Origin: a virus
Virus record (IMG/VR): IMGVR_UViG_3300009154_000033
Coordinates: 1 to 64,000 of that record
Length of the DNA: 64,000 nt
Direction: 5' to 3' (one strand)
The notes under the pieces were generated by a model. That model was not told the origin of the DNA. It did not search any database and saw only the letters and a list, made by a program, of their open reading frames with translations. This document shows, piece after piece, positions 23,660 to 58,242 of the stretch (within the stretch, counting starts at the first letter, position 1; each line of letters begins with the position of its first letter). A program made the position numbers and the translations under genes.

Positions 23660-26600
23660 TTAAGTTAGTAGTCTGAGCATTCTAGCCATGACAGACGAGA
23701 TATCTGCCTGACTAAACAAGTCTCCACCACGCATAAATTCTGCAATGTCAGAGGTAGCTTGCTTGCCATCTTTTTCACCTAATTTTTTACCTACTCTATC
23801 GACCATATTTGTCATAAGGTTTTTTAGGGCAGGAGGTAAGTCGCTAAACCTAAGTTTGGCGTTTTCGTCTCCAAAAGGAAGAGGTAGATTTCCAATAACC
23901 TCTCCCAATTCCTTTGACGCTGCACGAACATTCTCTAAAGAAGGTCCGGTCAGAGATTTACTATCAATTCGATCAAGCAAGTCTAGAAGACCCTGACCAG
24001 CTTTAGCTGCTTCAGAGTAATCTCCAGTCTTATATACTTTTTCTACTTTGCTTACTTCGTTAACTACATTTTGAAGACCGGATGTTCCAAGATCTAGTTT
24101 TAGTCGAGCTAGAACGTCTTGAAATCGTCCAGTGTAGTCACGCGGCTGATTGATTCCAGGTGTGAACTTAAAACCCTCTTCTTCAGGATTTCCAATAATT
24201 TCCTTGCTGCCTTCAGTTGGCACAGGTACGTTATCTTCACTTACTGGGGCTGGAGCTTCCTCCGGCACAGATCCATCAGCCGCTAATGCTTTTCCCAGGC
24301 TCTCCTTAATAGCAAGTACACGAGACTGTAGCTCGTTAGCACTGGCTAGAAGAGTCTTAGCGGCAATTCGATTACGTAGCTCATCTGCGCTAGCAGTTAC
24401 TGCGTCTTCTGATTGATGCTTCCAGTTTTCTGGAATAAGGTGACGAACGTTTAGCTTTCCAGCCATTTTGGTAATGTGCTTGCGGACATCAGACTTGTGG
24501 CTGTCTTTTGCACGACCATAAGCGTGGATTGCAGCACGAAGATCTTCTACGTTCTGAATAGGAAACGAGCCATCTTTAAGAGCTTTACCTTCTTTAGCTA
24601 ATTTTTGACGTTCATCACGAGGAATATAAGTTAGTTCACCATCACGTACTCTTGCGGATAGCTCTGCAATTTTTGCTACAAAGTCTTCATTAGAAGTAGA
24701 TGCTGGTTTATTTGATTGAATAAAGTTTAGGTTCTGTAGTCTCTCAATGCGAGCACTAAGGTCAGCGGTTGGATCTGCTTTCATTCTAGCTAAAGGCAGA
24801 GCACCTGCTGCAACTAGAGCCATAATAGCACCTGAAGCAACACGAGCACGAGCGACTGGGAATCCAGGAACGTTTACTTGGCAAACAGCGACAAGTTCTA
24901 GAGCACCACGAATAGGTCTCCAGTCGCCTGAAGGAGCTGAAGCACGAAGTGCACGAATCTGTTCTGGTTGTGCGCTAGGACGTAATCCACCAGCTACCCA
25001 GATGCCGTAAGCATCTTCGCCAGCATGAACGTCTGCGATTGCAGACGCGGTATCGTCATAGTGCCTAACTGCTTCAGATGCACTAGCCTCTAAAGAAGCG
25101 TGTCCACCAGCAAGGGTAAGCTGCCCGACCGGGACATCCTTGCCTGAGTCGGTTCTAATTACTCCGGTGTGGAAGTAAGCGTAGCCACTCTTGCTACGCG
25201 GTGGTTTAGTTCCATATGCCAAACCAATGTGGTCAACGTGCCAAGCTGCAATGTGACCAAAAACTCTACCGTTGTCGTCGACAGTGATAGGGGTGGCCTT
25301 ATCTAGCTTAGGATCGTTAAACCATTCGTTTGGCGGAACGACCGGGATCGCACCAGCAATAATACCGCAAGCAACTAGTGCTTGAGCATTAGCGGTGTCC
25401 GGGTCATCCTGATAGATGCCATCGGCAATCATGCTGTCCTCCTGAGGGGTATTGGTGTTTTTTTCTATAATAATTTTGCATTCTTGAAATGCTGGCTTAG
25501 GTACAATTGTAACAGCCATTACACGTGCTTTATTTATAGAAAGTTTGCTCTTTCCTAGATCTTCTTCACCTTCAGCGGCTTCAGACTTGATCTCTTTTGC
25601 TTCAAACCGATCTAGATCAGCCGATACACCTTTTATAAATCCATTTTCAATAAGCCTTTGAGCCTCTTTACCGAACTCACTAGTATCAAAAACACCATAA
25701 GCATTTCCAATACCCTGAGAGGTACGCTCCATATGGTCAATACGTCCAACTACCACGGATCCCATGTGGCCTTCAGCAGTTTTCATTTGCCATAGTAGCG
25801 GGAGAGGCAGTTCACGAATAGTCAAAGCACCCTTAACAAAACATCTACCATCGCCAGACTCAAGCTCTTCCGGGATAACTAGAGGAATCTTAAACTTAAG
25901 GCCTTCGGTAATAAGTCCGGAAGCGGCAACAAGTCCAACTCTAAACTTTGCATCAGCCGCTCTAGCCGCAACTTCTGATTTAACAATGATGTTATCTGTT
26001 GATTCAATTAATTCAGTGCTAAAAACACTTCTTCCGCCACGCTTGTGGCTATACATTTGACGATGCTTTTTATCGCCTGTCCACATTCCAGTAGTCTCTT
26101 TATGACGTAGAGCACAGTAGCCTTTAGCGCGTGGACCTAGGTACTTACCTAAGTGACGTACACAGCGTGTCCAGTCTCCTGCTGTACCCCAACGAATTTT
26201 TAACCCACCTTTACCGCGGGTCCAATAGTGACGAAGTTCTTCAGCTTTACCTTTATTACGATCCAGTCCACCTGCAGATACTAGAGGGTTAGGTCCCCAA
26301 AGAACGGTAAGTAAAAGATCAACGTCAAAAAGTATTGAAGCAGTTATCGGCTTAGATGACTCATCTACCTGAAGTAAGACGTCATTTAGAGTCGACTTAT
26401 CTAAAGGAACTACAGGAGGAGGAGTTGCTGATTTAAAATCATTTAGAACGCTAGGGTCACGAACCCACTTACCTTCTTTACGAATGTAAGTCATAGGCTT
26501 AGGTGATGTAGAGCTTTCTGGAACTATTGCAACTAAATTTAATACTGCACGTGGGTCATCTTGGGCTACAACAGCTAAGTAAATAGGCTTTACGTCAGAT

Positions 26601-28180
26601 GTCTTTGGAGTCATCTCTACGCCTTTTCCCTTAGGTGCAGCTTCAGTAGCAGCAACTACAGGTTTAGCCCAGGAATCGTCTTCGCTTTCTGATTGAGTTT
26701 TCTTAGGCTCATTTACAGACTTGATCCACTTTTGTAGGAGCGGATGGTCGTAAGACGCTACATCGCTAGTCTCTTCTTGCTCGGCAGCAGAGCTTTGAAT
26801 GCCGTGAGCAGGGCCTTCTCCTGCAGCAGAACGCTGTGAGTCGACCCAACCAGTCCAGTCGTAAAGTAGGTTATGTAGATCATTAGAAGTCATTGCAGGG
26901 AGGTCACCCTTGATGTGAGCCTGAGGCTTATCAATTGGGGAGCGTGGACGTCCAAGAATACCTGAAGTATCTAAAGGATGAGAAAAATCTCCTAAAGGTG
27001 GAGTTTTGTATTTAGTTCTCTCCGCAACGGGAATAGCTCCAGGAGCATTTCCACCCTGAGGAGCAAATTTGCCGCCTCGGTCTCTAGATTGACGTTCGGC
27101 ATTAGCGGCTCGCTCGGCGTCAGTATAGCCATCGGATCCAATAGGATCTTCGCCAGCAGCCGTCAGAGATCTGTCAATTGTAACTAAATCAAGTTCTTGA
27201 TAGGCTTCCGATGCAAGCATTGCTTCATCGGCATCGATATCTGATACAGATACGCATTTGTAAGGATTCTGTTGAAGTCTGGCTGATATAATAATTGCAG
27301 AATCTGGGTCAATAGAAATGTGAGTTTTACTTGTTTCGTCATAATCAGCGTCAAGTTCTGCATCGTAATCCCAGATAAGTCCATTTACATTTCCAAGATC
27401 ATCCCACTGGCCATCATCCCAAACATAGACATCTCCGTTAGAGTCAATTTTGTATAGACGATCAATTCCCGAGCCATCCATTCGAACTCTGGCAATAAAA
27501 TCTGGAGCTGTAGATGGATCTAGATAAACTGATTTAGTAAAATCTTCTAGGTCTGCATCATAGTCACGTTCTGGTAGATATGAAGTATATTCAGACTCGG
27601 TATAACCATCAGCAGTTAAAGCTTTATTCTCACGTTCAACGATAGCTCGTGCCCAGCTCCAAGCGGTGTCTCCGCCCCACAAGGCCCACGCGATTCGTCC
27701 GTTGCTTGGGAAGTTATCTTCGCCCGGTCTCCAACCTTTGCCTTTTTTATCCACTTCGTGACGAGGAAAATATTTAGCAATGTGGCGAACTTTATGTAGA
27801 CCAATTTGGCCACCTTTAGCAAGAATACGAGCACTGTTTAGACCTACAGGAGTCCCGCCACGGTGGTGCTCTTTATGCCATTCAAGAGCTTTTTTAGCTT
27901 CAGCCTGAGCACCTTTAGGGATAGTATAAAGTCTGTTAGCGGAAGCCAAGATCTTCATATCTAGATCAGAGAAAGCTCCGCTTACTAGCTCTAAAACATT
28001 TGAAGAAAACTCTTCTGTAGATGACTGCCAGTCTTTAGAAGATGAAATGCTATCTGAGGAGCCAGTTTGGACTACGAGATTGACATCTGTATCAATTACA
28101 ACACCGCGGTTCTCGTAGGTAAATAGAGCCAATGACCCGTCCCTACCAGAGAATGTGGGGGTGTTTTCCGATTCAAACAT
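23660..28180 (-). CDS. Capsid maturation protease, giant multidomain form
   Basis: 1506 residues, several times the usual size; ATG preceded by GGAGG. Parts in order: about 82-185 a domain common in phage protease/capsid proteins (ALEWHKEHHRGGTPVGLNSARIL, RHEVDKKGKGWRPGEDNFPSNGRIAWALWGGDTAWSWA); about 640-720 another (ELRHYWTRGKGGLKIRWGTAGDWTRCVRHLGKYLGPRAKGYC); about 735-900 an S78-like prohead protease with candidate His in GHMGSVVVGRIDH (about 803) and Ser in GVSADL (about 851); about 940-1110 the actinophage maturation-protease C-domain (GRVFGHIAAWHVDHIG, LAGGHASLEASA, AGEDAYGIWVAGGLRP); about 1185-1250 DGSFPIQNVEDLRAAIHAYGRAK; and a helical, probably scaffolding, C-terminus. It cleaves capsid and perhaps internal proteins. 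It is also the first candidate to process the two giant proteins upstream (inference). Confidence 0.87.
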   Translation of the reverse strand: MFESENTPTFSGRDGSLALFTYENRGVVIDTDVNLVVQTGSSDSISSSKDWQSSTEEFSSNVLELVSGAFSDLDMKILASANRLYTIPKGAQAEAKKALEWHKEHHRGGTPVGLNSARILAKGGQIGLHKVRHIAKYFPRHEVDKKGKGWRPGEDNFPSNGRIAWALWGGDTAWSWARAIVERENKALTADGYTESEYTSYLPERDYDADLEDFTKSVYLDPSTAPDFIARVRMDGSGIDRLYKIDSNGDVYVWDDGQWDDLGNVNGLIWDYDAELDADYDETSKTHISIDPDSAIIISARLQQNPYKCVSVSDIDADEAMLASEAYQELDLVTIDRSLTAAGEDPIGSDGYTDAERAANAERQSRDRGGKFAPQGGNAPGAIPVAERTKYKTPPLGDFSHPLDTSGILGRPRSPIDKPQAHIKGDLPAMTSNDLHNLLYDWTGWVDSQRSAAGEGPAHGIQSSAAEQEETSDVASYDHPLLQKWIKSVNEPKKTQSESEDDSWAKPVVAATEAAPKGKGVEMTPKTSDVKPIYLAVVAQDDPRAVLNLVAIVPESSTSPKPMTYIRKEGKWVRDPSVLNDFKSATPPPVVPLDKSTLNDVLLQVDESSKPITASILFDVDLLLTVLWGPNPLVSAGGLDRNKGKAEELRHYWTRGKGGLKIRWGTAGDWTRCVRHLGKYLGPRAKGYCALRHKETTGMWTGDKKHRQMYSHKRGGRSVFSTELIESTDNIIVKSEVAARAADAKFRVGLVAASGLITEGLKFKIPLVIPEELESGDGRCFVKGALTIRELPLPLLWQMKTAEGHMGSVVVGRIDHMERTSQGIGNAYGVFDTSEFGKEAQRLIENGFIKGVSADLDRFEAKEIKSEAAEGEEDLGKSKLSINKARVMAVTIVPKPAFQECKIIIEKNTNTPQEDSMIADGIYQDDPDTANAQALVACGIIAGAIPVVPPNEWFNDPKLDKATPITVDDNGRVFGHIAAWHVDHIGLAYGTKPPRSKSGYAYFHTGVIRTDSGKDVPVGQLTLAGGHASLEASASEAVRHYDDTASAIADVHAGEDAYGIWVAGGLRPSAQPEQIRALRASAPSGDWRPIRGALELVAVCQVNVPGFPVARARVASGAIMALVAAGALPLARMKADPTADLSARIERLQNLNFIQSNKPASTSNEDFVAKIAELSARVRDGELTYIPRDERQKLAKEGKALKDGSFPIQNVEDLRAAIHAYGRAKDSHKSDVRKHITKMAGKLNVRHLIPENWKHQSEDAVTASADELRNRIAAKTLLASANELQSRVLAIKESLGKALAADGSVPEEAPAPVSEDNVPVPTEGSKEIIGNPEEEGFKFTPGINQPRDYTGRFQDVLARLKLDLGTSGLQNVVNEVSKVEKVYKTGDYSEAAKAGQGLLDLLDRIDSKSLTGPSLENVRAASKELGEVIGNLPLPFGDENAKLRFSDLPPALKNLMTNMVDRVGKKLGEKDGKQATSDIAEFMRGGDLFSQADISSVMARMLRLLT

Positions 28181-28870: not shown

Positions 28871-31800
28871 TTACTTATTCTCCCAGTTCAATAGTGACAT
28901 CAGCAGACCGATTCCAAAAGCTTTTAGATCCCAGTCGGTGTCATTGGAAGGATCTAGTCCTTCAATTCCAGTGATCAGCTTAGGATCGATTTTAGTTGTC
29001 ATAGTGGCATTAGTGTACCAAACGCCAGTTGCTATATCCATGTGAGCATCGCTGAATCTAGTAGTTTTTTTGCCTTTTCCAGTTTTCACGGTTACACCAT
29101 TTGGAGTAGAGAATCTACCGGGATCGGTAAATAGATCTTGCATCGTAGTAGTTATAACTTCAGCACTGTGGTTATTAGGACTAAAAGTAGCAAACTTACT
29201 GGTAGAACGAGGGTATACTTTCACAGTATAAGGATCTGCCACTTTTGCTCCAGAAAAAGATTCTTCCATCCATTTTTCATAAACTTCCATTGAAGGAATA
29301 ATGTTGCTGCTATCAGCTGTTTTTATTCTGTCATAAGAAAAAGCGTGTTCTAAAGCTGCAATGTCATGGTTGATCATCTGGAAGAAATGCCAAACTTCAT
29401 GTAAGTAGTCATCAGTCGAGTCTCCACGGAAGAATCCTCCGTCACCCTGCTCTTTTTTCCATCTCAATGAATTTATTAAATTTTTATTTTTCCAGTGTTG
29501 TTTAAATTGCGCACGTGCATCGGAAATTTGAACTCCAAGTTTTCCACCAGTATGAGCTAGATATTCCATTCCAGCTAGAATAATATCCTTAGGAACAAAA
29601 CTAAGAGTTTCTTCTAGATTTTTAATAAGTTTCTTATTTCTATCTATTCTAATATCCTGGAATTTTTCATTACTATTAACATATTTGTAGTCTTTATATT
29701 GATTAAAGAACTGATGTGCAGGCACCGAGTCAAATTCAACTCCAGCCTTTTCCATCTGAGATTTAATATTTTTACCAATTATAGAATGATATTTATTAGT
29801 AAAATCTTCTGCTTTTGGAGAAGCTCTAAGCCGATCTCTTACTTCCTTTATTTCAGTTGCTTTCTTGGCAAGGTCTGATGTGTCAATTTTACCTGTTCGA
29901 ATAGCCCATTTGGTAAGCAGACTTAGGATAGTTTCTCCGCCCTCGTGTGCTCCCGTAACATCTATTAAAGCTCTTACTTCTTCTACATCTTTAGTTAATC
30001 TTAAAGTTTTTTTATTTCTAACTCTTTGTAGCACAGTTTTACCAGTATCAAAAATAAACTCTGAATATGGGGTAGCATAATCATAAGCAAGTTTATGGGA
30101 AAGGTCATCCCCGTACTCAACTAGAAGCATATTAAAAGTTTCTTCTGCACTAAAAACATTTACATCTTTACCAGATAATTCTTTAGCAGCCTCTTGTTTT
30201 AAACTTTGGAATATCTCTTCTTTATCTTCATAAGAAAGTCTATTGAAAGCATTTCTCATAAGATCTTGAGACATAGCTCTAAACTTACTGTCTCCCCTAA
30301 GTATTTCTCCGTTTAAGGATTTAGCATCATTCTCTAGCTTTTTTCTATATTCTTCAGCAGTAAATCCTTCAGGAATAAGACCTTCAGCTCTAGCTTGCTC
30401 ATCTGAGATAGCTCTAGCATCATCTAGAATCATATGTCCTAGGCCGATTATTTCATTTTTAATAGCGGTAGCCTGATCAGATGGGGCTACTGCATCTTTT
30501 TTAGGAGATCCTTCAATCTGTACTACAGGACCATCAATCGCTATGCTTATGTCATTTTTAATTTTTCCAGGAGTAAACCCGATACCACTAGAAGCAATGT
30601 CCTTAGCCGCAGATGCAATAATTTGTTCTCTAGAACCTTCCCTGTTTTGGCTAGGTTTATTATTATTTTGAATACCAAGTTTTTCTAGCATACCCTTTAG
30701 AAGATCAATAGCAGCTTTTTCTTTTCTTTCATCAACAGTAGCAATCTGATCATTGATCCAGTCCGCAACTTCTTTATGCCTTCCAATACCATCTTCGGAT
30801 ATTATCATTCCAGCATATGCTTCCGCTAGATATTCTCCTTCATCAGTAGCTGCATAGTCACTTAGAGGATATTCAGTCATAAATCTACGAAGCGTATCTT
30901 TCGTAGCCTGATCGCTAAAATTAATGATACCTTTTTGTTCAAGAACGTGTGCTATTTCGTGAGCAATTGTAGACTCTAGCTCTGTAGCATCTGCCCTAGG
31001 ATTTTCAGTTAGTTTAGGGTTAGGTTTATTATCTTCTTCGTTCAAAATTTGACCATTAACAAACATGTGAGGAAAAGACAACCCAGCTAAGTTTCGGCCA
31101 CGAGTACCATCATCTCTAGTAAATGGCTTGAAAAAATCCTCTATATTAGGATGAGTAACAATAACTTGAAGCTCTTTTACAGGGAACTTAAATTTAACTC
31201 TAGATAATACATCCGAAAGTTTATTTGCAAATTTAGCCACTCCAGCAGCTGTAGCAGCTCTGTATTCGGTATTTACATTTGTTTTACCATTTTTCTTAGT
31301 TGGATTAGTTATAAATCTAACAACTTTAATAGTCACATTATTATCTTTATTTATATAGATATCGTGATGAGGAAGCAACATATGCTCCTCATCATGCCTA
31401 TTAATTAAAGGAATTATATGCTTAGTAAGATAGACCTGAGCATTAATAGATAGATTGTCACTACTAGCTCCATCTCCCTTAACAACACCCATGTACCACG
31501 TGTAAATAGCATTTTTTTCAGCCATCGTTAAGTTATCAGTTTCTACATCTGCTGCTAACCACTCTGGCTTTGCATCAGGAAGAGGTCTAGTTCTCTGATC
31601 TCCGGCACCAGATAAAAGTGCTGTAATAAATGTTCTGTGTAGCTCGTTTAAGGAAATAGGTTCCTCGACTGGATTAGTTTGACCAGATCCTTCAGGAAGT
31701 TCATTTTCTTTAGCATCTAGTTTTTTCTTTTTTGCAAACTCGGAGATAACCCAGTCAGAGTTTTCTACACTATCATCAACGTTGATAGACGGAATCTCTC

Positions 31801-34800
31801 TATTTTGTGATGGGCCAGTGACATTAGGAGTACTCCTGTTAAATTCAATAAGATTATCAAAAGCGTTTTTATCTTTAGGAAGCTGGTCCACTAAATAGGA
31901 GATTACTTTATCTGCGTTCTCAGCGATAAAAGTTTTTTGATCAAGTACTTTATGAGAATCATCACTAGTAGCAGCCCTTACTAGTCTATTTTTTCCTGCC
32001 AGTAGAACTACTTCAGCTTCTTCAAAGCAACCAAAACCTGTGCCGGGAATAGAAAGTACCTGCTCAACAGGAATAATAGTTCCCATAAACATTCCGGCTC
32101 TTTCTTGCAACCTACTAGTAGCAAAGTTGAAAGCATCACCGTGAAGCCAGGCCCAAGCTGACATAGGTCTTTGCAATATTTCAGCATCTCCTATGCCATT
32201 ATACTCAATACCGGTATCTATTTTAAAAGCTTCTTCGTCTACTCCAGTACCTCTGTAAAGAGTTAAGTATTTTATTCCATAGTTTTTAAATCGATCCTGG
32301 GTAAGATCGTACATAGTTTTTAAGAAATCTTTAAGAACAGAACTGTGGATTCCATAGTAGTATTCTGCATTTTCTAAAATATCTTTTGTATACTGGGCGT
32401 TTTTACTTTGAACTTTCCATGGGGCCCACGAACCAGCAGGCATTTTAAATGTCTCAGCAGCAGCAATCTGTAAAGCGTGAGATAGCATATCACTACCATT
32501 AGATGTCTCTGCCCACTGCGCAACAAGTATTGAAGCGGCTTTTTCTTTAAATGCCTCTATGTCTTCCGGATTGTCAAAGAAAATTGGTTTTTTATTTTCA
32601 TTTGCATAGTAATCGTCAAAAAGAGTTTTATAGTCAATAGTTTTTTCATCGTAAGGGTTTCCGTACAGTTCTTCATCGTAAGGATCCATGAAATCTAGTA
32701 CTTCTCTTAGAGTTTCTATATGTAATCCTTCATATGGAGAGTGCTCAGAGTCATCAATAAATAATATAATAGAATTTCCATTTAAATTATCCGATTTACT
32801 ATCTAAAGCTTTTAGAGCCATCTTTTGACTATCTAGATAACTCAACCTAGATCTGACTACCTGACTGATAGATATGGCATGATCCAATGCTCCCAAAATA
32901 TCTTTGGGAGAGGATAACATATTATTACCTATATTTTTAGCGGCAATCTCTTTTAATTGCTCAGAGGCTCCGCCCATATGTCCAATTGAGCTATCTATAT
33001 CAAAAGCATCCGGATCGTACCACGTAGCAATCTCATTAAGTCCAGTCTCTTCATTCTCAGCCATAAGCTCATTTAAAAGATCAGACTGTATTTTAAGTAC
33101 GTCTGTAAATCCAGGTACATCCTTTGGATCCAAATTGATTCTAGGGTATAAAAGATCTTCGTCATTAAATAGGTGGTATGGATTTATAAGTGATCCATCC
33201 TTAACATTCTTGAAGTTTTCTAGACTTCCATCCTTATTTAGAACTACATCTCCGACTCCTCCGGATCTTTCCATTGTAGTTGGATTTTTAAAGTCCACAG
33301 TGCTAACGCCAACTACAACAGGCACATACTCTCTTCCAGCTATACGTGCAGCTTCAACCCTATGATTTCCTTCTGCAATAAAAGCTCTTCCAGTAAGAGG
33401 GTTGTACCAAACTAGTACCGGCTCTAAGTAGCCAGTTCCGTCTTCGAGGTCATGGGCTATAGAAGATGTACTGCTCTCCATATCTGCAAGATTGCCTTTC
33501 ATTGTGGCAAGCTTTTCAGTTCTAACATAACCCAGTGGATTACCGCCATTACCTATTCCATATATTTTTACACCTTTGCCAGTCCATTCAGTAAGGTCTA
33601 GGTCTGGGTCATTCTTGTCTCTATAGGAGTTATTTAGAGGAATTACTTCAAGATATTTATTAAGAATAGTAGGCTCTTCAACATTTTCTCTATTTTGATT
33701 AGGTCCATAGTCAATTTCATCGCCATCAAGCTTAGGCTCTTCTACAGGAAGACCCTTCTCCTTAAGAAGATCAATCTGTAGTTGCTTAGATTCTAAAGAA
33801 TCGTGTACGTCTGGTTTTCCAGCATCCACCGAGTTAGAAAAAGCTTTACCGTACATGGTAAGAGTGCTTGAGTGGTTAACAGGTTTACTGTAGTGCTTAC
33901 GAGCTACATACAACATTGCTGTTGCAAGACCGCGGCGTCTATATTCATCATTGGTAAGTACTAAACCAATTTTAGCAGCAGCATTAGGATCTTTTTTGTC
34001 ATCATCATCTACTCTTAATGAAGCTATATGAAGAAATTTTCCACCAAATGTATCTACATTTTCCATACCCTCAGGTGTAAAGTTGGGTGCTAAGAATCTA
34101 CCTTCAAGATCATGTACGGTTACCAGTACACTTTTATCGCTACTGCTGTCAGTGTTTATGTCAGTAAGGATCATATATTTTCTACCGTACTTATCAATAA
34201 ATTTATCTGTGTAACGGACAAACCCAGTAAACTTTTTAGGTTTAGATTTACCTAGAGTAACTTGATCAGCGATGGTTTCCATATTTGTTTTAGAATCTGG
34301 GTTAGCTACAGTTGTGAATTTAGTGTACTCAAATCTCCTAGAAATTTTAGCTGCACGTATTTTTGAGTCATCTCCCGAAGCTATGGCATCTTCTACATTT
34401 TTATTTTCCCAGTCCATGATTTTTTGCTGTTTTGCATTAAATGGAGTGCCGTCGGGCAGCTGAGTGTAATCATAATTATAGATAGTATCTAGATCAAGAG
34501 TACGATCATTAGGATCAAAAGGCTCAGGCGGATACTGGTTCTCACGGTTTTGAGAAGGTTGATTATTAGATAGAGTAACCTTTGATTCATCATTTCTATG
34601 AAGATCAGGGTTAGGGTCAACTGAAAGAGAGAATGCTCTACCAAAAGAGGTTAACATTTCTGAGTGCTGGACTTCTTTTCCAGAACGCTCTCTTGCTAAG
34701 TGAAGAGCTGCAGTAGCTAGACCTCTTCTTACATATCTATCTGAAGTGTAGACCATGCTAATTTTGTTATTAAAGACATCTAATGAAGACACAGGAGTTC

Positions 34801-37800
34801 TATCTTCTGAATTATCTTGAAGATCTTGTAGGGAGTTTTTACTCTTATCGTAAAGCTTTACGTTTGACATGCCGAGGCCGTTTACTACCTTGGTAACTAC
34901 CCAGTACTGTCTGCCGTACTTGTCAGTAAACTCATCAATATACTGAGTACTCTGCTTGTACTCTGGTGGTAGATCTGCATAAGGTTTACCGGCACCGCTG
35001 TAGTTCATTCTAGAAGTATTGTCATCTAGAAGTCCCACCTGATCTTTAATACTTTCAAGATTAGTGCCAGACTTTAAGTTTGGTTTAGCGGTGTATCCCT
35101 GATAGATACGTCTTCTTTCAGCAATACGCAGTTTTCTTTCAAAATCATCAGGTTCATTGTCAATCGCATCTTTAAGAATATCCATTTGTTGCTGTTGATA
35201 AACATTGAATGGGGTACCATCAGGCATTTGAGTATAATCGTAGTTGTAATACTTCTCTAAATCAATAGTGGGATCTGTAGGATCAAAAGGTTCTTTCTTG
35301 GCTTTGTTTCTCTTGAAAAATCCTTCACGGTTTTGAGATGGTGCATTGTCTTCCTGTAGTTTTATAGACTTCTCGTTATTGTGCAGATCAGGCTTACCAG
35401 GGTCAATGCTGTTAGAGAAAGCAAATCCCATGCTAGAAAGATTATCTGAGTGAATTACTGGAAGTCCTAATCTCTTTTCTAGAACAGCAACCAATGCTGT
35501 TGCTATGCCTCTTCTTTGGTATCTATCGGTAACCATTACACTTTGGATTTCAGACACAGATGGGTCTCTAAATATGTAGGAATCGAGTCCTCCGACATCA
35601 TTAATTCCAGACACAGGTTGATCTTTTCTTACATAATCTTCAGGTAGAGGCATACCTTCAAAGTTTTTTTGGTCGTAGGCTACTACAGTCTGACGTCCAG
35701 AGCTTTCGTCTATGTTAGTAACTATGTAGTATTTTCTACCATATTTATCGGTAAACTTATCCACATATCTTGTGTAAGTTAGTCCACGAGCTTCATCAAA
35801 ATACTTTACAGCTGGCTTATCGCTAAACTCTACCTGTTTAAGAATGCTATCTCTTGTAGTAGAAGAGCCTTTGGTAGGCTTAGCAATTATTTGCTGATAT
35901 AAAGTTCTTCTAAAGTTTTTTAAATTCTTTACAGCAAAAGAGTTAGCATCTTCATCATTATTTTTAAGAATGTTTTCTAATCTTTTAGCTATTGCATCCA
36001 TCTGCTGCTGCTGATCACTATTAAAAGGAGTGCCATCAGGCATCTTGGTATAGTCATAGTTGTAATACTCATCTAAATCTGCTTTTTTATCTCTAGGATC
36101 AAAAGGCTCTGGAAGGTACTTAGACTCTTCTTCCTTAGGAGCAGACTCTATTTTTTCAAAGTGCTTGTCAGCAGCTGGCCATAGATTGCGTAGCATTTCT
36201 TCAGGCATACCTTGAGCAGTAGGCTTAGTCATAAAGTCTGAGAGCTGGTCTCTACTAGTGAACATTCTCAAGAAATCGTCAACGTTGGTAGAAAGATCCC
36301 AGCTGCTCTGTTTAATCCAATCTGCATTTTCATCGCTGTTATCGATGTTTATAGGTTTTTCAGCACGTTCTCTATTTTGAGAAGGCTTGCTTTGTTCTTG
36401 AATTACTGTCTGTCCGCTTACTGGATCGTTAGATACAATTTGATTTCTTTCGGCTTCTTCTTTAATTGCCGCTTCTAGATCGCTATTATCTCTATTTCCA
36501 GGATATGAGTGATATGAGAACAAAGCTTCTTTTATGTCCCCGCCTAAAACAACAACTTCACGTTCATCCATAGATCCAAACCCAGATCCAGAAAATGATA
36601 TAACTTTATCGGCCGGAACTATTGTAGCCATAACTACTGCATTTTTACCTGGCGAGTTCATTGCAAAACTCTCTGCTTTATATCTATTAGTTGACCATGA
36701 AGATAGTGGCCTCTGCTGTACAGTGCCTGAAAATACTCCAGTAGACCCTAAATTATTATAAATTTCATTTAGTTCTGTAGAGTCAGATCCCCTATACACA
36801 ATAAACCCATCAATACCCTGATCCTTCAGCAGATCTTGAGTAGCGTTATACATTGCATGTAAGAACTGTGTATAAATAAGTCTGTGATCTTTAACTTCTT
36901 GATCAACCTGATCTTCATAGTGGTTATTTAAATCTATTAAATCTTTTACTTCATTAGGAACGGTTCCCTGCTCCCTATAGATATCTACATTGTATTGATT
37001 CATGCCTCTAACAAAGCTCCACTCGGATGTGGCTTTAGGGTCCATAGCAAATATATCTTTAGCTACTTTTTGCATAGCATGAGATTTTATGTTTTTATCA
37101 TTAGAAGACAGTGCCCATGAGTGAATTAAATTAGAAATCATTATTTTCTTCAGATCATTTACATCTTCCTGATTAAAACTTGAATGTACTCTTAAAAACA
37201 ATTGATCATTTATAAACTTTATAATACTGTTTGAATCTGTATTGCCCATTTTTTCTAGAACAGAATTCATAAGTTCTTTATTTACAGTCAATATAGATAT
37301 AGTTGACAGACTCTTAACTTCATTAACATTAGTGACTAAAAGTTCTGTATCTTCTTTTATATCGGATAGATCTGCATTAAAAGCGTTGTATATTGATGAA
37401 GATGCAGGGCCTGAAAGACGAGAAAAAAAGGCCTCTTTTGCTATACCGTTGTAGTTCATGTAATGCACATCCATGCGGCTAGATGCATTAAATAGTGGAG
37501 AATATCCACCGCTCATAGCAGCTTTAAGCAAATCATCAAATCTAGCATCTGGCATATACCTAAGAAGTCTTGCAGCTGCAACTTGCTTAAGCAGGATAGA
37601 TTGAGAAAACTCAGACGTTGAGCTAAACAGATCGGATATAGAGTCGCTTGCGCTCAGATCGTCTATTTCGCCATTTCTTACAGCATCTTCTACAGCTGAA
37701 ATATTTGTCTTTTGAGTAGCTGTAGTGATATTTCTTTCAGCACCCTCACGGTTTTGGTTAGGGTTAGACTTTTCTTTAGCTGATTGAACGTCACCTAGAT

Positions 37801-40800
37801 CACGGATCTTGTCGTCATAAACGTTACGGATTTGCTCTAGGTCATTGCCACTTGTAGCGGAATCTTCGTAAAGTGAGTTTAGCTTCTTAAGCTCATTGTA
37901 AAGTTCTTTAGCTGCAGCTTTGTAGACGTTCTTGTCTGCACCAGGCTGGTTTCTAAAGTTTTCAATTGCATTTTCAAGATTGTTTTTAAAGGCACTTAGA
38001 TCATTCTCTAGATTTCCATTGTAAGAAGCATTTTCTATAGCTTCAGGAGCTACCGAAGTTTTAGGTAAAGCTTTACTTCTATTAGAAATAATATTTCTGA
38101 TCTCATACTCATTTTGAGTGTGGAATACATTATCTAAGGAATATGACTCTTTAGAGTCGTTGATGTTTACAATTTCAGGATTTTTATTTCCATCAAGCCT
38201 GAGTTGATATCCCCACTCAATAAAGTCTGTTTTATCCCTAAAAGCTGTAGGATTAGGCTTTTTAAATACTTGTAGCGTTATCTTTTTAAGATTTCCATCA
38301 CTATCAACAACAACTAGATCATCTCCCTTGTTGATTATTTTACCGTCGGCACCCCTGTGTATAGGGTTAACCTCGGCACCATTACCTGAAGAGTAATTAT
38401 CTATATATTTTTCAAAATTATCTAAATAATCTGTACTAGACATTATCTTTTTAAAAGCTATTTCTAGATCTACATAACGAATAAAGTCATCTATATCTTC
38501 AGGGTTTAAAATCTTTGCTAGCTGATTAACCTTATCGTTTGCATCTTTTTTAGCAGCATCAGGATCTTCAGTTCTTTTACTTCTGTGGATGAAATCATAG
38601 ACTTTTTTAATAGCATTGAACAGTCTGTAACCGTCTTCACGAGAGATCTTGTCTGGAGTCTCTTCCGAGGTAGGCTCTTTTACAACTTCTGGCTTAGGCT
38701 CAACCGGTTTAGCCTTAATAGCTTTTTCAATATCTTTTTTGTCTTTAGGGCTAAAAGCATTGAGCTTAGTAAGCATATTGAAGTTATATGTAGTTTCTTT
38801 CCCGTTAGGACCTCTTACGGTTAGCTGAACAACTCTACCTAGAGTATCTTTCTTAACTACAACTCCAAGAGCATAACCATCTGGACCATAGATAGTCCAC
38901 CCAACGTCTACTTTTTCTGCTAGATATTGCTTAGCTGTTTCCTTGGTTATTTGAGTTGGGCCAAGATCTTTAGGAGTTTCTACTGAAGTTACAGGAGTCG
39001 CGACAGGTTTTTCCGGCTTCTCTTCAACGGGCTCTTCTGGCTTTTCTTCAGCAGATTTAGCAGTTTCTGCCTCTGCCTTAGCTTTCTCATCCCACTTTCT
39101 CTGTACTTCAGCCATCTTAGCTTCTTGAACTGGAGCAGTAGCGTCTTCATCCATTTTTGGATCAGTGCTGGTTGGCTTGAAAGCATCGTAGATCATTTTA
39201 GGGACGTCAATCATGCCGCCTTTTTCATCTACGTAAAGGAAGTACTTAATAGGCCCCCAGATATTTTCTGATTGACCTTTGACAAAGTCGACGTCTTTAA
39301 GATTTTGACTCTTGCGCCTACCAATAGCAAATCTGCTGTAAAGTTCACGGTAGGTCATTACTTCGCCATTCCAGCGAACTTTTTTGTCTAGGTGGGCTTT
39401 AATTTTACCTAATTGCATTGGAGATAGAGCATCAAAGTCTAGAACTCCGCCAGCGGTCTCAATAACATTTTTCTTAGGCTCTTCTGTAGGCTCAGCTGCT
39501 GGCTCTTCTACAACTTCAGGCTCATTTACAACTTCTTCAACGTCAGACTCAGAGATGCCATCTTCTACTTCTATATCCCTAAAGAGGTTGTCAAAGTTGA
39601 AGTCTAGAGGATCGGTTGGTTTGCCGGCACCTTCCTTCATACCCTTATTAGTTAGTACATTGAGCTGCTTCATTGCATCGACAAGTTCAGCTATTCTCTT
39701 AGCAATAGCTTTTTTCTCATTTTCATCTGTTGAAGAACTTCTAGTGTTGTTTAAAATATCCTTATAATCGCTAAGTTTTTCATGCAACATTACAACAGGA
39801 TACGGGCTAAGCTCTTGCTTCAAACGCTTAGCTTCGCGTTTCATGTTCTTGCCTCGTTTAGCGGCTAGATACTTTCTGTAAAGCTGGCCAACTTCAGTCC
39901 AAGCATCTATATTAGCCTGACGTTCTTCCTCGGTAAGTTCCTTAGGTTCTTCTTCTACCTTAGTTTCGGCTACAGGTTCAGTAGCAGGCTTAACGTTCTG
40001 GTTCTCGTCAGAGTAGCGAGCTAGGCCGGTTATTCCACCAAACTTAGCCAAAAACTCTTCATCATTAACAAAGACATTATCGTAATACCCGCCCTGTGCA
40101 CGGTTAGGTTCTTTAATTTCAAAAACTCTATTTCCGTTTTCATCGGTCTTAACGGATACAACTTGTGCATAGAAGTTAGGACTAGTTTCTTCGCTTTTAG
40201 TTCCCTTCCATCTAGTAGTTGGAGGGAAGTGCCCACCATACATTAGGTAGTCGCCAGATTGAATTTGATCTAAAGATTCTAAAGGAATGTATTCGGATGT
40301 GTAAGGGTTGTTATTTCCACCATTTTCAGCTATTGCATTAGCCACCATTTTTCTGGCTTCTTCTACAGCTTTTTTCCAAACTTCCGGATCATTAATATCT
40401 CCTGGAACCTCGGCATTTCTATAGTCAATAAGTCTACGTCTAGACATATCTTCTCGCCATTTGTTATTTAATAAGCTTATTCTCCAACCAGCAACTCTTC
40501 CCTTTTTGTTGTAGCTATTAGGCTCGATCGCTTCTTCGTAATAGATCTCTGCTCCATAGCGAAGTCCATCTTTTGCACGAACGTCGGGATAGTCTGCTTC
40601 GTGCTGGAATCCTTCTCCATTTATTACATATTTAGCGTAAGGTTCTCCCGCACCTGCGGGGAACATTTGAACATCATCCGGTAGAGGGAAGTTATGCTCG
40701 CCAGTTATTTCTTTTGATTCGGTTGTAGGAGTGGTTTCTTCTTCAACAGGCTGTTCTTTTTCATCCTCATCATTTAATTTAAAGAATTTAAAACCATACT

Positions 40801-43800
40801 TATTTTCTAGTTCTTTTTCATTATCAAGTCTTCTTTGAAGTTCTTCTTTAGCTAGATTTTCATCTTTATAAGCATCTATCATATCCCCAATGTGCGCTGC
40901 ACTTCTTTCAGATGACCCTAGCATAATTTCATATTCGCCCCAGTTAGTTTGCTTAACAAAGTATTTTCCAACTAGATCTTTAAACTCAGGATCCATATCA
41001 CCCTCTAGACCAACATCTAGAGTTACTTTTTCTATTTTTCCGCGATTAATTAGATATATAGTATCTCCACGCTTTGGCTTATGGCCATCAGCTGTAACAC
41101 CTTCAGTAGCATCTCTACGTGCAGGATCTTTCCAAATCTGATATTGCTGAGCTAACCACTGCTTAGCTTTTGCTATAAGTTCAGGATCTTTATAGTACCC
41201 ATAAAGATCTGCCCCTCTCCAATAACCGTCTTTGTCTTGGAATTTTACAGAGATGTGATCTCTAGGGTAGTCAGTACTTCCCCAGTATCTAATCTCTCCC
41301 CAGAATTCAGCACCTTTCTTTGGAACTGCCATATTTCCGCTACCATTGCGAGGCCTAGCCATATTCCAACCAAGAGCAATTTGACCATACTTATCTTTTT
41401 CCCAGTCAGCTGCAACATCTTGTAGATCTACAAAACTGTCATCAATTTTTTCTGGCTCGTTGGCAGGAGTAGGTGCGGCAGCTGGAGCATTTATGTTTCT
41501 ATATCTCTTAGCAAGTTCAACGTAAGATTGATTTATAAGATTCTCTAGAGCTGACTTGTCATTCTCATCGCCATCAACTTCAAAAGTTGCAACTACGTTA
41601 CCCTTTGGATCTAGAATGGTGGCGGTCCACTTACCATCCTTGTTAGATATGACAGCTCCAAATGGAGGTTTTTTCAGCCGATCTATTTTTTCAGTTTTAG
41701 CTGCTTTCCATTTTCCAGTCTTAGGATCTTTTAGAGCTCTCCAAATGTAGTCATCTCCAACTTTTCTAAAGAAGTGCGGGAATGTGCCTGGAAGTTCACC
41801 GTTGTTATATTCTTCATTTCTTCTTGCAAGAGCTTTTGTAGCGAACTCAAATGCTTTTCTAAAAGTTTCTTCCTCGCTACGTTCTAATTCAAAATCTAAT
41901 AATTCTGCAGGACCGTAACCATCTCCATCGATGGTGCCGTCCCAGTTTCGCCACTGAATTTCTGTGTATTTTTGATCTAGAGATCCATCAGCTTTTCTTG
42001 TAAAAGTAATCTTTATACGAGCCCCTGGAGCGCTAAAGTCTTTGTTGTGCCAAATAACTACTGCTTTTTTACCAGCAGCAAATTTTGAAGGATCTTCGTA
42101 AGGTAATGCACCTTCTTCTCCTTCTTCGCCATCCTCTTCGCGGTTTTGAGAAGGCTTGTCGCGGTTGTCTTGCTCTTCGATCTCAAAGCCCTTTTCAATA
42201 AGCTTTTTCTCGTCGATTTCAGCAGGGAATTCTGGCTTAGGATGTACCATCGGCACATAGCCTTTTTCTGCATAGCCCTTAGGGTCAATCTTTCCCTTGC
42301 CGATAGGGTCTTCTCTTGTTACTTCTGGTTCTGGAGTTTCGGTAGATTCTTTTTTACCAAGGTTAGCGTCAATAATGTCTTGTACAGCTTTAACAACTTC
42401 ATCCCAGTTTCCTCTTAGGCTACTTCCTTCACGTTTTTCGACATGCTTGATTTCACCAGGTTTTAGATTTTTATCTAAAAGGTCTAGAAGTTCTTCGTAA
42501 TCAATACCTTCTTTTCTTCCATAACCATGCACATCCAGGTATGGAGCTAAGATATCTTTTATAAGACCTCCCACTACATCGGTTTTTTCACCTAGTGGGT
42601 CTACAGCTTCAATTCTTTCTTTTAAAAGTTCTTTTATGCGATCAAGAGCATCGAGTTGTCTTTTCCTGTAACCTGGATCTAAGAATTCTTTTACTTCATC
42701 TAAAACTTGCTTTAATTTATCTGAATACATGCCTTCATGTACTGCTCCAAGGTTTTCTTTTAGATGCCTAATTAGTCCTTTATAATCTTTAATGTCTAGC
42801 TTTATAATTTCTTGTACAATTTCATACGCCTCTTGAGCGATTTGATCAGCCCTTTGCTTTGGATCCTGATTAGGATCAATTCTTTTGCCAAGGTTTATTG
42901 CTATCCTAAGGACAGCTTCAATGATTGATTCATAAAGAAGTTTTCTTTCTGGACCGTATATTTCAGTAGTAGATTCAGCTGGGGTCTTGACTCCATTTAA
43001 GAAGTCTTTTGCATGAGCAATTATGGAATACTGGTCACCGTTTCCAGGCAAAATCTTCTCATTTAAATACTCCGCTAATCTCTGATATTTAGATACAGGT
43101 ACGCCTAAATTATGAATTTCTTCAATAATTTCATCAACTTCAAGTCGTATTTTATCCTCAAGTTCAAGGTCAAAATCCTCCCAGCGGCCACTAGATTTAT
43201 ATAAAGCATTACGGATCGCGGCCCTCAATAAAATAATAAAAACTTCATCAAATGAATCGTTATTTCTGCGTCTACCTCCACCACCACCGCCGCCATTACC
43301 GCCACGTCCACCTCTACCGCCGCCGTTACCTTCTCCGCCTCTGTTGTTACCATTGCCACTACCCTCTCCACCCTGATTCTCATTTTCAGGTGTAGGTGCA
43401 GGAACGTTTGACTTAGAAGAAGTTAGTACTTTTTTGAAGGTTCCAACTGGAACAACTTCGTGCTTGACTTCACCGTCTTTGCCTACATAAACAACAACTC
43501 GGTCACTAGACTTTTTAACATCAGGAACGCCGATGCCATGCTCAAAAACGTTTACAACGTTAGCTGGGCCATCCGGACTTTCGTAAACCATTCCAGGTTT
43601 GAGATCTTCAGCCTTTACTGCATCTGCGTTAGAAGAATCAAGTTTTCCTGGCAAAGGATAAATAAAGTCTGGACCGTCGCCAGGTACAAAGTTAGCTCCT
43701 GCTTTAGTAACATAAATTATTCCATTTTTGTGTACAACATACTCATCTAAACCTTTTGGAAATACATCTCCAGGTTTATAATCTTTACCTTCTACCCAGT

Positions 43801-46800
43801 AGTGCCAGTTCCCGTGTCTATCTTGACGTATTACTACAACTTTACCGTGAAGATTTCCATCCTTGTCATATACAATATCTCCAGGTTTGACATCTTCAGG
43901 CTTCTTTACATCTGGAGTTCTAGCTTTTCCGCCTCGTGGAGTAGTAGTTTTTTTACCTTTACCTTTTTCTTCTTTTTTAGGGGGGTTTACTCTTTCAGAG
44001 TTTGCAGTCCAATGGATCGGTTCTCCGTGGATGTAAGGCTCAATTGCAACTTTCCAGAATTGGCCAATATTAGGTAGAATGCTATCCTCTCTATTGTGAA
44101 ATGCAATAAGAGCTGCTGCAAATAATTCAGCCATTCTTTCATCAAATGCATTAGGATTTATTTTTGGATCTAAATCTGCATTTGGGGTAACTGCAAATCT
44201 CTTGAATGGTTTAGCATCTGTACCCCAGAACATCTTTTTAAGGTCTCCCCAAAGAGGAGAGTTAACCAGTTTTCCATGCTTTTCTCTATTCCAGAGGTGA
44301 CCTAGCTCGTGAAAGAATACGTGCTGAAGTGCAGGAACAAATCCTCCAGGATTTTGACCGTAATATTCTTCTTGTCCCTGCTCATTTATTCCTTTGAAGA
44401 GTCTTCTTTTGTCAGCTTTATCCAGATTATGCAATTGATCCCAAAGAATCAAGTGCATAGTACCATCAGGTTCGGTGTGAGACTCCCCGGTTAAGCATCC
44501 AAGCTCGGGGTGGTCCTTATCAAAACCAATGACTTCACCCTCAGTAAAAGCTGGATCTCCTTGCTTAGCAATTTTAATTCTTACAGGGAGTTTAAATCCA
44601 AGCTTTCTTGCAGTATCTAGGTATCCTTTAAGTTCATCTAGAAGTTGACCATTTATGTCAGACTGCTTGTCAAATTCAATAGTAAATTCTCCATAGCGAA
44701 GTATGACTTTTTCACCGATACCCTGTAAATTCTTATAAGTAGCAGCTGCAATAGCATATTCTTTTTCATTTATATCGGTTCTGCCTTCTGGATCTTTAAG
44801 ACGTGTACCTTTACGAGACTCTCTAAGAGCTTTCCAAAATAGTTTTACAAAATCGTCTAAGTTCCCAGCAGACTCGTACATATCTTTATACCAGGAAGGG
44901 TATCTCTCCCAAGAATCGATACGATCGTAGCCAACCGGAATATATTGCTTAGGCTTTTTTGTAAACTTTTTCTTTAAAAAGTACCCTCCAGCTTTAAGTT
45001 TAGCTAAAAATTCCAATTCTTTTTTGTTAGGTACGCCATTGCCCTCACCTAGCTCACCGCCACCGCCTCCACCACCGATTCTAAATTGGTTAGGAGTGTT
45101 GTTAGTTCTATCTTTATTGGTGTTTAGCCGAGCTAGAACCTCTGCAGCTTTACCTCTGGTAGTTGCTTCATTAACAGCTTTTTTAGCTTCGGCAGCAATC
45201 TCTTGATTTTCTGAGCCAGCAAGTTCATTGAGAGCATTTAGTTGGGCTTCAGTAACTGGATTATTTCCAGATATAGAGTTTTTAAACGCAGCCATACGTT
45301 CTTGGTAAAGCTTTTGCATTTCCGGAAAATTCAATAGACGCATATCTTGATTGTCTTCAGCAGCAGCTCTATCGACAATCTTTGAGACTAGGTTGAATGA
45401 ATCTTCCGCATCTCCATCAGCTGAGTGCCAGTTAGCAGGTTCAAAACCTAAGAAGTTTGCAACTGGGCCAAGGCTGGAGCTGGCTCTTACTTCGCCAGTC
45501 TTGCGATCTGGAGCCTTAGGACCGTCAGTGCCTTTTTCTGGATCGTACTTAGGCAGAAGTGAGGCAAGATCTTTTGAGTCAACGGTTCCGGCAATGTTTA
45601 ACTTGATACCTGAATCATCAGCCATACGCTGTAAAATCTCTAGATCAAATGGAACGTTCTGTCCACCAAGAATAGCATTAGGACCTATAAACTCTAAGAA
45701 CTGTTTAAGAGCTTCTTCAGGACTCATTTGCTCTTGAAGCCATTCTGGAGTTACAGCAGTGGTTACAGGCTTTCCGTTTTCATCTCTAACAATATTGCCA
45801 TCCCCATCTACAACATCTCTCTTTAAGTTATTTGCAGACCATTCGGAAAGTTTGCTTCCAGGATTGATGTAAACGTTAAAACGCTTTATAACTTTTCCAT
45901 TCTTAACTTGAACTGCTCCAAGTTGAATAGGATCATTTTTGATACCCTGGCCGTCATAATCAGAGATACCAGTAGTCTCAAAATCAAAGTATGTTATTAC
46001 CTGAGATTTTAGACGTTCTGCAACTTGCTTCCAGTTCTTTGCACCAGCAAGAATTTTTTGCAAAACTCCAGTGAAAGCACCGGGGGTAGGTAGGCGTGCA
46101 CCATTAGCGTCCATAGTTGCTGATTGTAGATCAATTCCCAAATCAGCAATTGAAGATCCTTCTCTATTTTGAGCAGGCGCAGCTTCAGGAGTAGGCTTAG
46201 CTTCATCTTTGCCGATCCATGCTTGAATAGGGTGGTCAGCGGGGACGTTCATAATTGCACGACGTCCATTTTGGAACTGAATAAATATTTGCTTAGTGCC
46301 GTCAGCTAAAGTCTTAACATTGGTAATTTTTCCATACTGATCAGAACCTTGATCGTAAACAATATTTCCAGCAGCTAGATCTTTACCAGTAAGCGCAGTT
46401 GCGGTTTTCTTAGCAGCTTCTTCCTTGTAGTTTTCTGGATCTGGAAGATCGGCTTCGGCATCTTTAAGATCTTGTGGAGTCGGATCTTCTATCTTAAGAG
46501 TGTCTTCATCTTGAATGCCACCGTCTCCAACTTCATACCCTTCAGTATTTTTCCCTAACTCAATTCCACGCTTTTTTAAATATTCAGGGTCTAGTGTTGC
46601 AAGTACTTCTTCAGCATTATTGTATTTAATGTATAGAACTTTGCCAGCAAAATTAGGATCGCTAGGGTCAACTAAAACTCTTGCAAATTTACCATCTGGA
46701 GTTGCACCAATAAATTTACCAATAACGCGGGCAGTTCTACCTGCATCATTTCCTCTTTTTTTACCTAAACGAACTTTAGCTTTAATACCGCGACCCATTT

Positions 46801-57084: not shown

Positions 57085-58242
57085 CTACTTAGTTGGTAAA
57101 AGGTCTGCATCTTTGCTTTTATACAGATCGGTAACTAGCTTTACTGCACGATCGAAAGGAGGCTCAAACTCGTTGATTGCTCTCTTCCAGACAGCGCGTA
57201 TTGCTGGAACTACTTCATACCCTAAACCTGAATATTCAGCTAGAGAGTAAATTGCATCTTCTGGACTGCTGTAGTCCATTTCAGATTTAATAGAGATGGC
57301 AAGATCTCTACTGGCAGCAATAGATGCAGTCAGGCCTTGACTAGTGTCTACTGTGCTGCAAGGGTGGCTAGTAGGTAGCAAATCATTGTCCTGCGTATAA
57401 CGCGCATTTGATGGACGCTTATTTTCTACCAGAGATAGGAATGCTTGTACTCTAGCTTCTGCCCAAGTAGATAGTTCGGTGTCTGGCTTACCGCTAGCGG
57501 TGAAGGCACGAACACCTCGTCTATATACTGCACGCAAAGTCGCGATTGAGACAAGATCATCTAAATCTTTTCCAGCATTGTGCTCTTTGGTCCAACGTGA
57601 AAGTTGTTTTTCAGTTTCATTTGAAAAGGTAACTTTTTTAGTTAGGTAAGCATTGTCATTCTTTGCAGCGGAAACGTAAACAGGAGTTGCAGGCTGATCT
57701 ACCACATCTTGCGATGCTGTTATAGGTAGGTCAGCCTCAGATTTTCCCAAGTCGCCCTGAGCTGTTGAATCAGCTCCAATGATTGTGCCTAGCTGCCATG
57801 CCCACTTGTTGTGCTGGTCATCGCGTTCAGCTAGGAAGTTTGCAATACCCTGCTCGTTAAGAGCATTGGCAATATCAAAAGCAGCTCTGATTACGCTGAT
57901 AATGTAAGCATTTGCTTGGTAAAGAGATGCAGACATGTCAACTGGATCAGCTGAAACTGGAGTTGCTTGAATTCCTGTAAGAGATGCGTAGTCAGTTAGC
58001 AAGAATGGTGCATCAAATCCTAGTTTGCGAATGTTTTCTGCAAAAGGGTCGATTGCACCGTCTGCATCTTCATAGATTTCTGCAAACTTGTCGTGGAACT
58101 GTGGAAAGTTGATTCCACGTACGTTCCAGTGGTAGCCGTGTGATAGAAATTTGAAAGTTACTGTATCTGAGAGCAGAACAGCTAGCATCTGAGCAAGATC
58201 TTGCTTAGTAGCCGGGACTTCCTGAGTAATTGATAAATCCAT
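57085..58242 (-). CDS. Dps/ferritin-like protein fused to a phage structural domain
   Basis: 385 residues, ATG with AAGGAG. Residues about 10-165 are Dps-like: LLSDTVTFKFLSHGYHWNVRGINFPQFHDKFAEIYEDADGAIDPFAENIRKLGFDAP, with the HWNVxG and HxxF...E...D spacing of the Dps ferroxidase site; a second helical pair follows (NALNEQGIANFLAERDDQHNKWAWQLG). The C-terminal part (LVSIATLRAVYRRGVRAFTASGKP; WAEARVQAFLSLVENKRPSNARYTQDNDLLPTSHP) is a domain found in actinophage portal-region proteins and ends in a second DLLP motif. Dps binds DNA and oxidises iron. Located between portal and the giant genes, so it may be packaged; whether it protects virion or host DNA is open. Confidence 0.78.
   Translation of the reverse strand: MDLSITQEVPATKQDLAQMLAVLLSDTVTFKFLSHGYHWNVRGINFPQFHDKFAEIYEDADGAIDPFAENIRKLGFDAPFLLTDYASLTGIQATPVSADPVDMSASLYQANAYIISVIRAAFDIANALNEQGIANFLAERDDQHNKWAWQLGTIIGADSTAQGDLGKSEADLPITASQDVVDQPATPVYVSAAKNDNAYLTKKVTFSNETEKQLSRWTKEHNAGKDLDDLVSIATLRAVYRRGVRAFTASGKPDTELSTWAEARVQAFLSLVENKRPSNARYTQDNDLLPTSHPCSTVDTSQGLTASIAASRDLAISIKSEMDYSSPEDAIYSLAEYSGLGYEVVPAIRAVWKRAINEFEPPFDRAVKLVTDLYKSKDADLLPTK

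Follow-up and report, generated by a model that had tools for sequence, protein, structure and literature searches.

Why would one phage protein carry three related acetyltransferase-like modules in a row, framed by copies of a single short peptide, and what might that peptide do? The question is raised by a 64,000-nucleotide stretch of viral DNA (positions 1 to 64,000 of IMG/VR record IMGVR_UViG_3300009154_000033, which has 113,694 bases; hereafter the window), where an open reading frame (ORF) of 6,018 amino acids, ORF P, occupies the minus strand from 28871 to 46927. Nine P[S/N/A]QNRE sites divide ORF P into ten segments, of which P4, P5 and P6 are the three modules, assigned to the GNAT acetyltransferases below, and the companion frame upstream, ORF Q (3,232 amino acids, 47369-57067), has four more sites. 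The explanation of the whole that we favor, with moderate confidence, is a self-processed polyvalent polyprotein that would release three GNAT proteins.

Three Diverged Modules Share One Frame and One Border Peptide

A sequence-only reading of this locus had described three strongly diverged tandem modules framed by a common motif, and all three, together with four sites, do lie in frame in one minus-strand ORF:

36368-36385, minus strand: site PSQNRE before the module 1 prefix
36107..36367, minus strand: 87-amino-acid prefix (INIDNSDENADWI...) joined to module 1; its own segment between sites in genome G007
35342..36106, minus strand: GNAT module 1, head plus core (core 35369-35791), by alignment and Pfam Acetyltransf_1 (22.1 bits, cutoff 20.7)
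35324-35341, minus strand: site PSQNRE between modules 1 and 2
34559..35290, minus strand: GNAT module 2 (core 34583-34966), by AlphaFold2 (pLDDT 87.7, pTM 0.85) and NAT_SF matches in BFVD
34541-34558, minus strand: site PSQNRE between modules 2 and 3
33704..34522, minus strand: GNAT module 3 (core 33791-34237), by an AlphaFold2 core model (pLDDT 78.1) and Foldseek PDB matches, almost all GNAT
33686-33703, minus strand: site PNQNRE after module 3

The extent first proposed for the array, 33704-36385, holds in that it takes in the first site and stops directly before the last, and needs correction in that the first module carries the extra prefix. From site to site the segments of modules 1 to 3 measure 348, 261 and 285 amino acids. 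The modules align end to end over about 265 residues at 39, 37 and 38% pairwise identity (two-sequence BLASTP E = 2e-52, 3e-50 and 3e-47), which bears out both their relatedness and their strong divergence.

This divergence is old. In a tree of the window and loci L001-L004, modules 1, 2 and 3 form three separate groups, the phylogenetic comparison that the sequence-only reading had called for, so the triplication predates the split from L004 (the genome G004 of later sections). L001-L003, L005 and L006 keep these three modules in an unchanged order, while L007 and L008 have one type resembling module 2 and one further type. Purifying selection acts on each module (dN/dS 0.04-0.26). Of the aligned columns, 57 hold one residue throughout all three modules, and 42 are constant within a module yet change from module to module. 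Such divergence under selection is compatible with different targets for the three modules, as had been suggested, and is evidence for no particular target.

Models Support a Truncated GNAT Fold

Searches of Pfam, PHROGs and NCBIfam left modules 2 and 3 unnamed above cutoff, and the Pfam GNAT family exceeded its cutoff in module 1 only, so structures were needed for the other two; the Pfam Acetyltransf_CG family matched none of the modules. The fold proposed from the letters alone was GNAT, to be checked by structure prediction, and AlphaFold2 models and Foldseek matches return it in a truncated form. The module 2 model begins with a mostly helical head of about 100 residues, followed by three strands, a helix and two strands in an apparent hairpin; helix α3 directly follows RRGLATA and leads to a very short β5 and to α4. 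There are no strands after α4 in the models of module 2 or of the module 3 core, and hence no β6-β7 hairpin.

Structural matches point the same way. For module 2, BFVD returned phage NAT_SF proteins and a ParB-GNAT protein of Mycobacterium phage Tonenili (probability 0.96-1.00). Against PDB, the whole of module 2 gave only noise (serpins, E > 0.4), a problem solved by the core-only model of module 3, for which nearly every listed Foldseek match is a GNAT. The best is rice serotonin N-acetyltransferase (E 2.9e-4, probability 1.00, TM about 0.5), and others include HAT1, AAC(3)-Ia, RimI and the small YjdJ of E. coli (5i0c). A sequence profile of the module cores likewise matched acetyltransferases in PDB. 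The pyrophosphate-loop motif (Q/R)xxGx(G/A) reads QRRGIA, VRRGLA and RRRGLA in modules 1 to 3, with RRG[IL]AT intact, and R.G.AT is invariant even in distant relatives. Together, the models and matches support a GNAT fold without β6-β7.

Two of these features speak against working enzymes and would allow pseudoenzymes: the lack of β6-β7, and Val in place of Gln or Arg at the first loop position of module 2. The general acid of GNATs is usually a Tyr in the region of helix α4; this region has Phe and no Tyr in the modules, and with the very short β5 this would suit domains that have lost catalysis or do something other than acetylate, such as bind CoA or serve a structural role. We regard such a role as doubtful, since the three modules and their orthologues, which are under the purifying selection described above, share an invariant RRG..AT loop and HS pair after β5, and small GNATs are known, among them YjdJ and At1g77540, the latter reportedly titled a 'minimal acetyltransferase'. 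These minimal GNATs and Acetyltransf_CG resemble the modules in having a small core, but the modules here add a large helical head domain.

The Border Site Is Conserved as Protein

Beyond the array, the site recurs at nine further positions:

46160..46177, minus strand: PAQNRE, ORF P
42137..42154, minus strand: PSQNRE, ORF P
37745..37762, minus strand: PNQNRE, ORF P
31796..31813, minus strand: PSQNRE, ORF P
30638..30655, minus strand: PSQNRE before the C-terminal segment of ORF P
55694..55711, minus strand: PSQNRE, ORF Q
51626..51643, minus strand: PSQNRE, ORF Q
49316..49333, minus strand: PSQNRE, ORF Q
48611..48628, minus strand: PSQNRE, ORF Q

ORFs P and Q thus hold 13 copies of P[SNA]QNRE, against 0.0005 per shuffle, and the motif is found in no other ORF of the examined regions (the window and its relatives), the major capsid protein (MCP) included. 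What is kept is the peptide and not the DNA: Ser is encoded by TCN or AGY and Arg by CGN or AGR. Tandem arrays often homogenize, and all 13 site Gln codons are CAA, as might be expected if repeats and site persisted through recent gene conversion at the DNA level and not through selection on the protein. This is highly improbable given that the modules share only 37-39% identity and their synonymous divergence is saturated or nearly so, that the other site codons vary widely, and that each module resembles its orthologues in other genomes more than its paralogues in the same one. CAG makes up 42% of Gln codons in P and Q as a whole.

Another peptide, [IL]N[IVL]D[DN][ST]xEN[SA]DW[IV], also recurs, next to sites in several segments of P homologues (window 36107-36367 and 31700-31800; L004, L007 and L008).

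The Site Has Switched as a Set

Among the related genomes, each carries one type of site. G001, G002, G003, G005 and G006 have PSQNRE only (6-11 copies each, with none of the other type). Conversely, G004, G007 and G008 have only a GPS[PQ]KxE type, at 19, 18 and 4 copies with no PSQNRE, as counted by a DNA pattern that excludes the PSQKEE form of G008. Wherever P and Q were both read, the two agreed in site type. Since G007 and G008, with the other type, are the more distant relatives, parsimony indicates that PSQNRE is probably derived. Of 49 loci with a related head protease, only those of this clade have GNAT arrays carrying the motif, and a pattern search for such arrays found no relative in 84,980 host genomes. 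Outside the clade, GPSPKEE occurs across IMG/VR as single matches only, 5/7 of them in frames below 40 codons and the remaining two in frames of 128 and 811 codons; the match in the 811-amino-acid frame (L054:5770-5790) is on a 213-kb contig with no tie to the clade.

The C-terminal segment of ORF P, P9, changes together with the site. P9 is 85-97% identical within the PSQNRE group and 36-41% identical across site types, and its HExxH and the following E-H pair (E430/H431) are invariant in seven genomes. Other parts are far more similar between the window and G004, the nearest genome with the other site type: 76-88% identity over the GNAT modules, head protease and MCP taken together, with 76-84% for the GNAT modules and 87% for the MCP, and 87% for the last segment of ORF Q, which has an MPTase-PolyVal domain. 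Any factor that recognizes the site would be expected to change along with it. Because P9 changes with the site and bears HExxH, and the head protease and the MPTase-PolyVal segment do not change, we propose that P9 is a metallopeptidase that processes its own polyprotein according to a site code specific to the lineage.

Several observations weigh against this proposal. P9 with its neighbor P8 is the longest contiguous block that diverges between site types and not the sole one, other such blocks lying at about 601-801 and 2601-2801 of P and about 601-801 of Q, in addition to P8 itself. No profile linked P9 to a known peptidase family, so that the call is that of a conserved HExxH signature. 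Furthermore, the site switch is one evolutionary event, which makes its link to P9 a single instance. A search of the P9 profile against PDB gave enkurins over the N-terminal part, which we did not take as meaningful.

The sites could instead be cut by the phage head maturation protease at head maturation, as in T4 and giant phages, with P9 as another effector. Directly downstream of ORF P lies the coding region of a head maturation protease domain, and the prohead protease of giant phage SPN3US cleaves after Glu at AXE (PMC10052503), the residue on which the sites here also end. This domain, however, is 84-97% identical over all pairs spanning both site types with no type-specific change evident, and no other ORF of the genome, MCP included, was found to hold the motif, which together make cleavage by the head protease unlikely. 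Alternatively, the motif might tether modules, or bind a partner in the capsid or P9, as a linker or docking peptide and not as a cleavage site. A docking motif too would be conserved as protein, lie between domains and change with its partner, but here the motif marks the borders of modules in long chains of several enzymes, a kind predicted to be processed (Iyer et al. 2017, PMC5512222), and its switch coincides with that of a segment that carries a peptidase signature; we assign docking a low probability. Our proposal of P9 as the processing enzyme extends, tentatively, to a built-in metallopeptidase and all 13-19 of its recognition sites in two genes having been exchanged together within one clade, a lineage-private 'protease-site code'. 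That this code exists seems to us possible, at somewhat less than even chances.

Gain and Loss of Modules with Their Sites

The idea that module plus site forms the evolutionary unit stands for the C-terminal array and is weaker elsewhere in the polyprotein. G004 has a fourth GNAT module ahead of module 1, with none in the window, and between modules 1 and 2 it has ART, short and ParB segments, each ended by a site, which the window lacks. The prefix that forms its own site-bounded segment in G007 is joined in the window to module 1, at the LPEPFDP head they have in common. Since the prefix of a lost module would thereby be joined to module 1 at that head, the arrangement suggests that the window lost a module through deletion by recombination between heads. 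Over the rest of P and Q the fit is looser. Many large insertions and deletions outside the array are not at sites, and in a whole-protein test 29% of large-indel edges lie within 30 amino acids of a site, against 11% expected, a modest excess that is confounded by linker regions and repeats.

Genomic Setting of ORFs P and Q

The other features of the locus are as follows:

28871..46927, minus strand: ORF P, polyvalent polyprotein with GNAT array, from ORF reading
36539..37177, minus strand: ART-like domain, segment P3
33128..33685, minus strand: ParB-like domain, segment P7 (phrog_1033, E 4e-4)
31976..32578, minus strand: ART-like domain, segment P7 (YRG, SxW, ExE; SP-15 homologue, E 1e-15)
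30656..31795, minus strand: segment P8, zincin-like (HEIAH; weak Peptidase_M78), missing from G004 and G008
28874..30637, minus strand: C-terminal segment P9 with HExxH zincin signature (HEVWH 29387-29401), proposed site reader
47369..57067, minus strand: ORF Q, companion polyprotein with the same site
47372..48610, minus strand: last ORF Q segment, ArdC-N and MPTase-PolyVal (Pfam 3.3e-17 and 2.7e-29)
23660..28180, minus strand: ORF with head maturation protease domain (PHROGs)
21468..23516, minus strand: MCP, without the site (phrog_777, 3.6e-73)
58260..60065, minus strand: portal protein (phrog_776, 1.1e-100)

With three GNAT, two ART-like, one ParB-like and RNase_T domains and zincin signatures, ORF P is, by its predicted domains, a giant phage 'polyvalent protein' that joins several disparate biochemistries in one chain. 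Zincin-like metallopeptidases are present as MPTase-PolyVal in ORF Q, above cutoff, and as the HExxH of P9. ORFs P and Q sit among the late virion genes, between the portal and the head protease and MCP genes, an order kept in G004 and G007 and the position expected for packaged proteins; from this position, the ORF P product may be packaged and injected with the DNA. Relatives of the capsid and portal genes come almost all from phages of actinobacteria, so the host is likely an actinobacterium.

The RNase_T exonuclease domains of P (42149-46171) and Q (51638-55705) are about 36% identical, a paralogous domain common to both polyproteins. ORF Q also has a UvrD-like helicase segment, and the ArdC-N domain near its end is described as rare among phage-type polyvalent proteins. 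Between the portal gene and ORF Q, 57085-58242 encodes a Ferritin/Dps-like domain fused to DUF5824. The head maturation protease is part of a 1,506-amino-acid ORF, and Actinomycetia phage DSL-LC01 has three adjacent genes annotated as capsid maturation protease (L117:16804-21723).

DSL-LC01, a lake metagenome assembly (PMC10611076), is the nearest named relative and has at the place of ORF P a 3,289-amino-acid protein with neither GNAT nor motif. Related phages L026 and L027 have a polyvalent protein of nearly 5,000 amino acids with one GNAT beside a ParB-like domain, no border motif, and primase-like and helicase-like parts (read by eye).

Relation to Known Systems

Polyvalent proteins with GNAT beside ART domains are already known, and a C-terminal zincin has been proposed to process them (Iyer et al. 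2017, PMC5512222). As described there, they are very large and multidomain, combine GNAT, ART, ParB-like and zincin domains, and are predicted to be packaged, injected and self-processed; the ArdC-N and MPTase-PolyVal domains of ORF Q fit this pattern. The locus differs in its two to four tandem GNAT units and its explicit, recurrent border peptide that switches as a set. In that paper it is ART domains that are multiplied, up to 12 per protein, with no comparable site motif in the sections read. What is new is the tandem array with a lineage-switching border site.

ParB-like plus GNAT proteins of Mycobacterium phages (Blubba gp73, Tonenili gp97, ScoobyDoobyDoo gp74) have the same truncated GNAT and are encoded shortly upstream of the portal. 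Blubba gp73 shares the HS...T..G..W/F signature and the ParB-like neighbor, and Tonenili gp97 has GNAT matches in two stretches and a weak rimI match, the only hint of a tie to the RimI-like GNAT families of Iyer et al. 2017. Unlike ORF P, these proteins have 500-750 amino acids and one or two GNATs, and the Blubba protein showed no border motif. Packaging, and cutting during or after assembly, are also known for P1 DdrB and head proteins of giant phages, whereas here 13-19 copies of one lineage-dependent site are spread over two genes.

For the GNATs themselves, a model is Rac of phiKMV-like phages, a phage GNAT that acts on host RNA polymerase (PMC7824862), although Rac is a single protein. 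From the proposals for polyvalent proteins (PMC5512222) and the Rac report, a role in early modification of host proteins is likely by analogy.

Proposed Processing of the Polyprotein and What It Would Mean

We envisage ORF P as a late-expressed, probably virion-packaged polyvalent polyprotein whose repeating unit would be a mostly helical head domain, a truncated GNAT and a six-residue processing site. A metallopeptidase within the polyprotein, most likely P9, would cut P and Q at P-S-x-[N/K]-x-E, probably after the Glu, either during assembly or after injection. Three GNAT proteins would then be released in equal amounts along with ART-like, ParB-like and nuclease/helicase pieces, and the freed GNATs, as paralogues that may have drifted to different substrates, would acetylate proteins of the host or the phage at an early stage of infection.

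The concerted switch of the site is the notable result; the constituent parts are of known kinds. Polyvalent phage proteins have been predicted to be cut into separate effectors, and here a border peptide is visible at every module of the array. That the site switches as a set with one peptidase-like segment means that peptides and one small enzyme would suffice to test processing directly. The array would also offer a small natural series of diverged paralogues for finding the substrates of injected phage acetyltransferases. If a protease-site code of this kind exists, it would let effector cassettes such as the GNAT modules be gained, lost and reordered while remaining compatible with their own enzyme.

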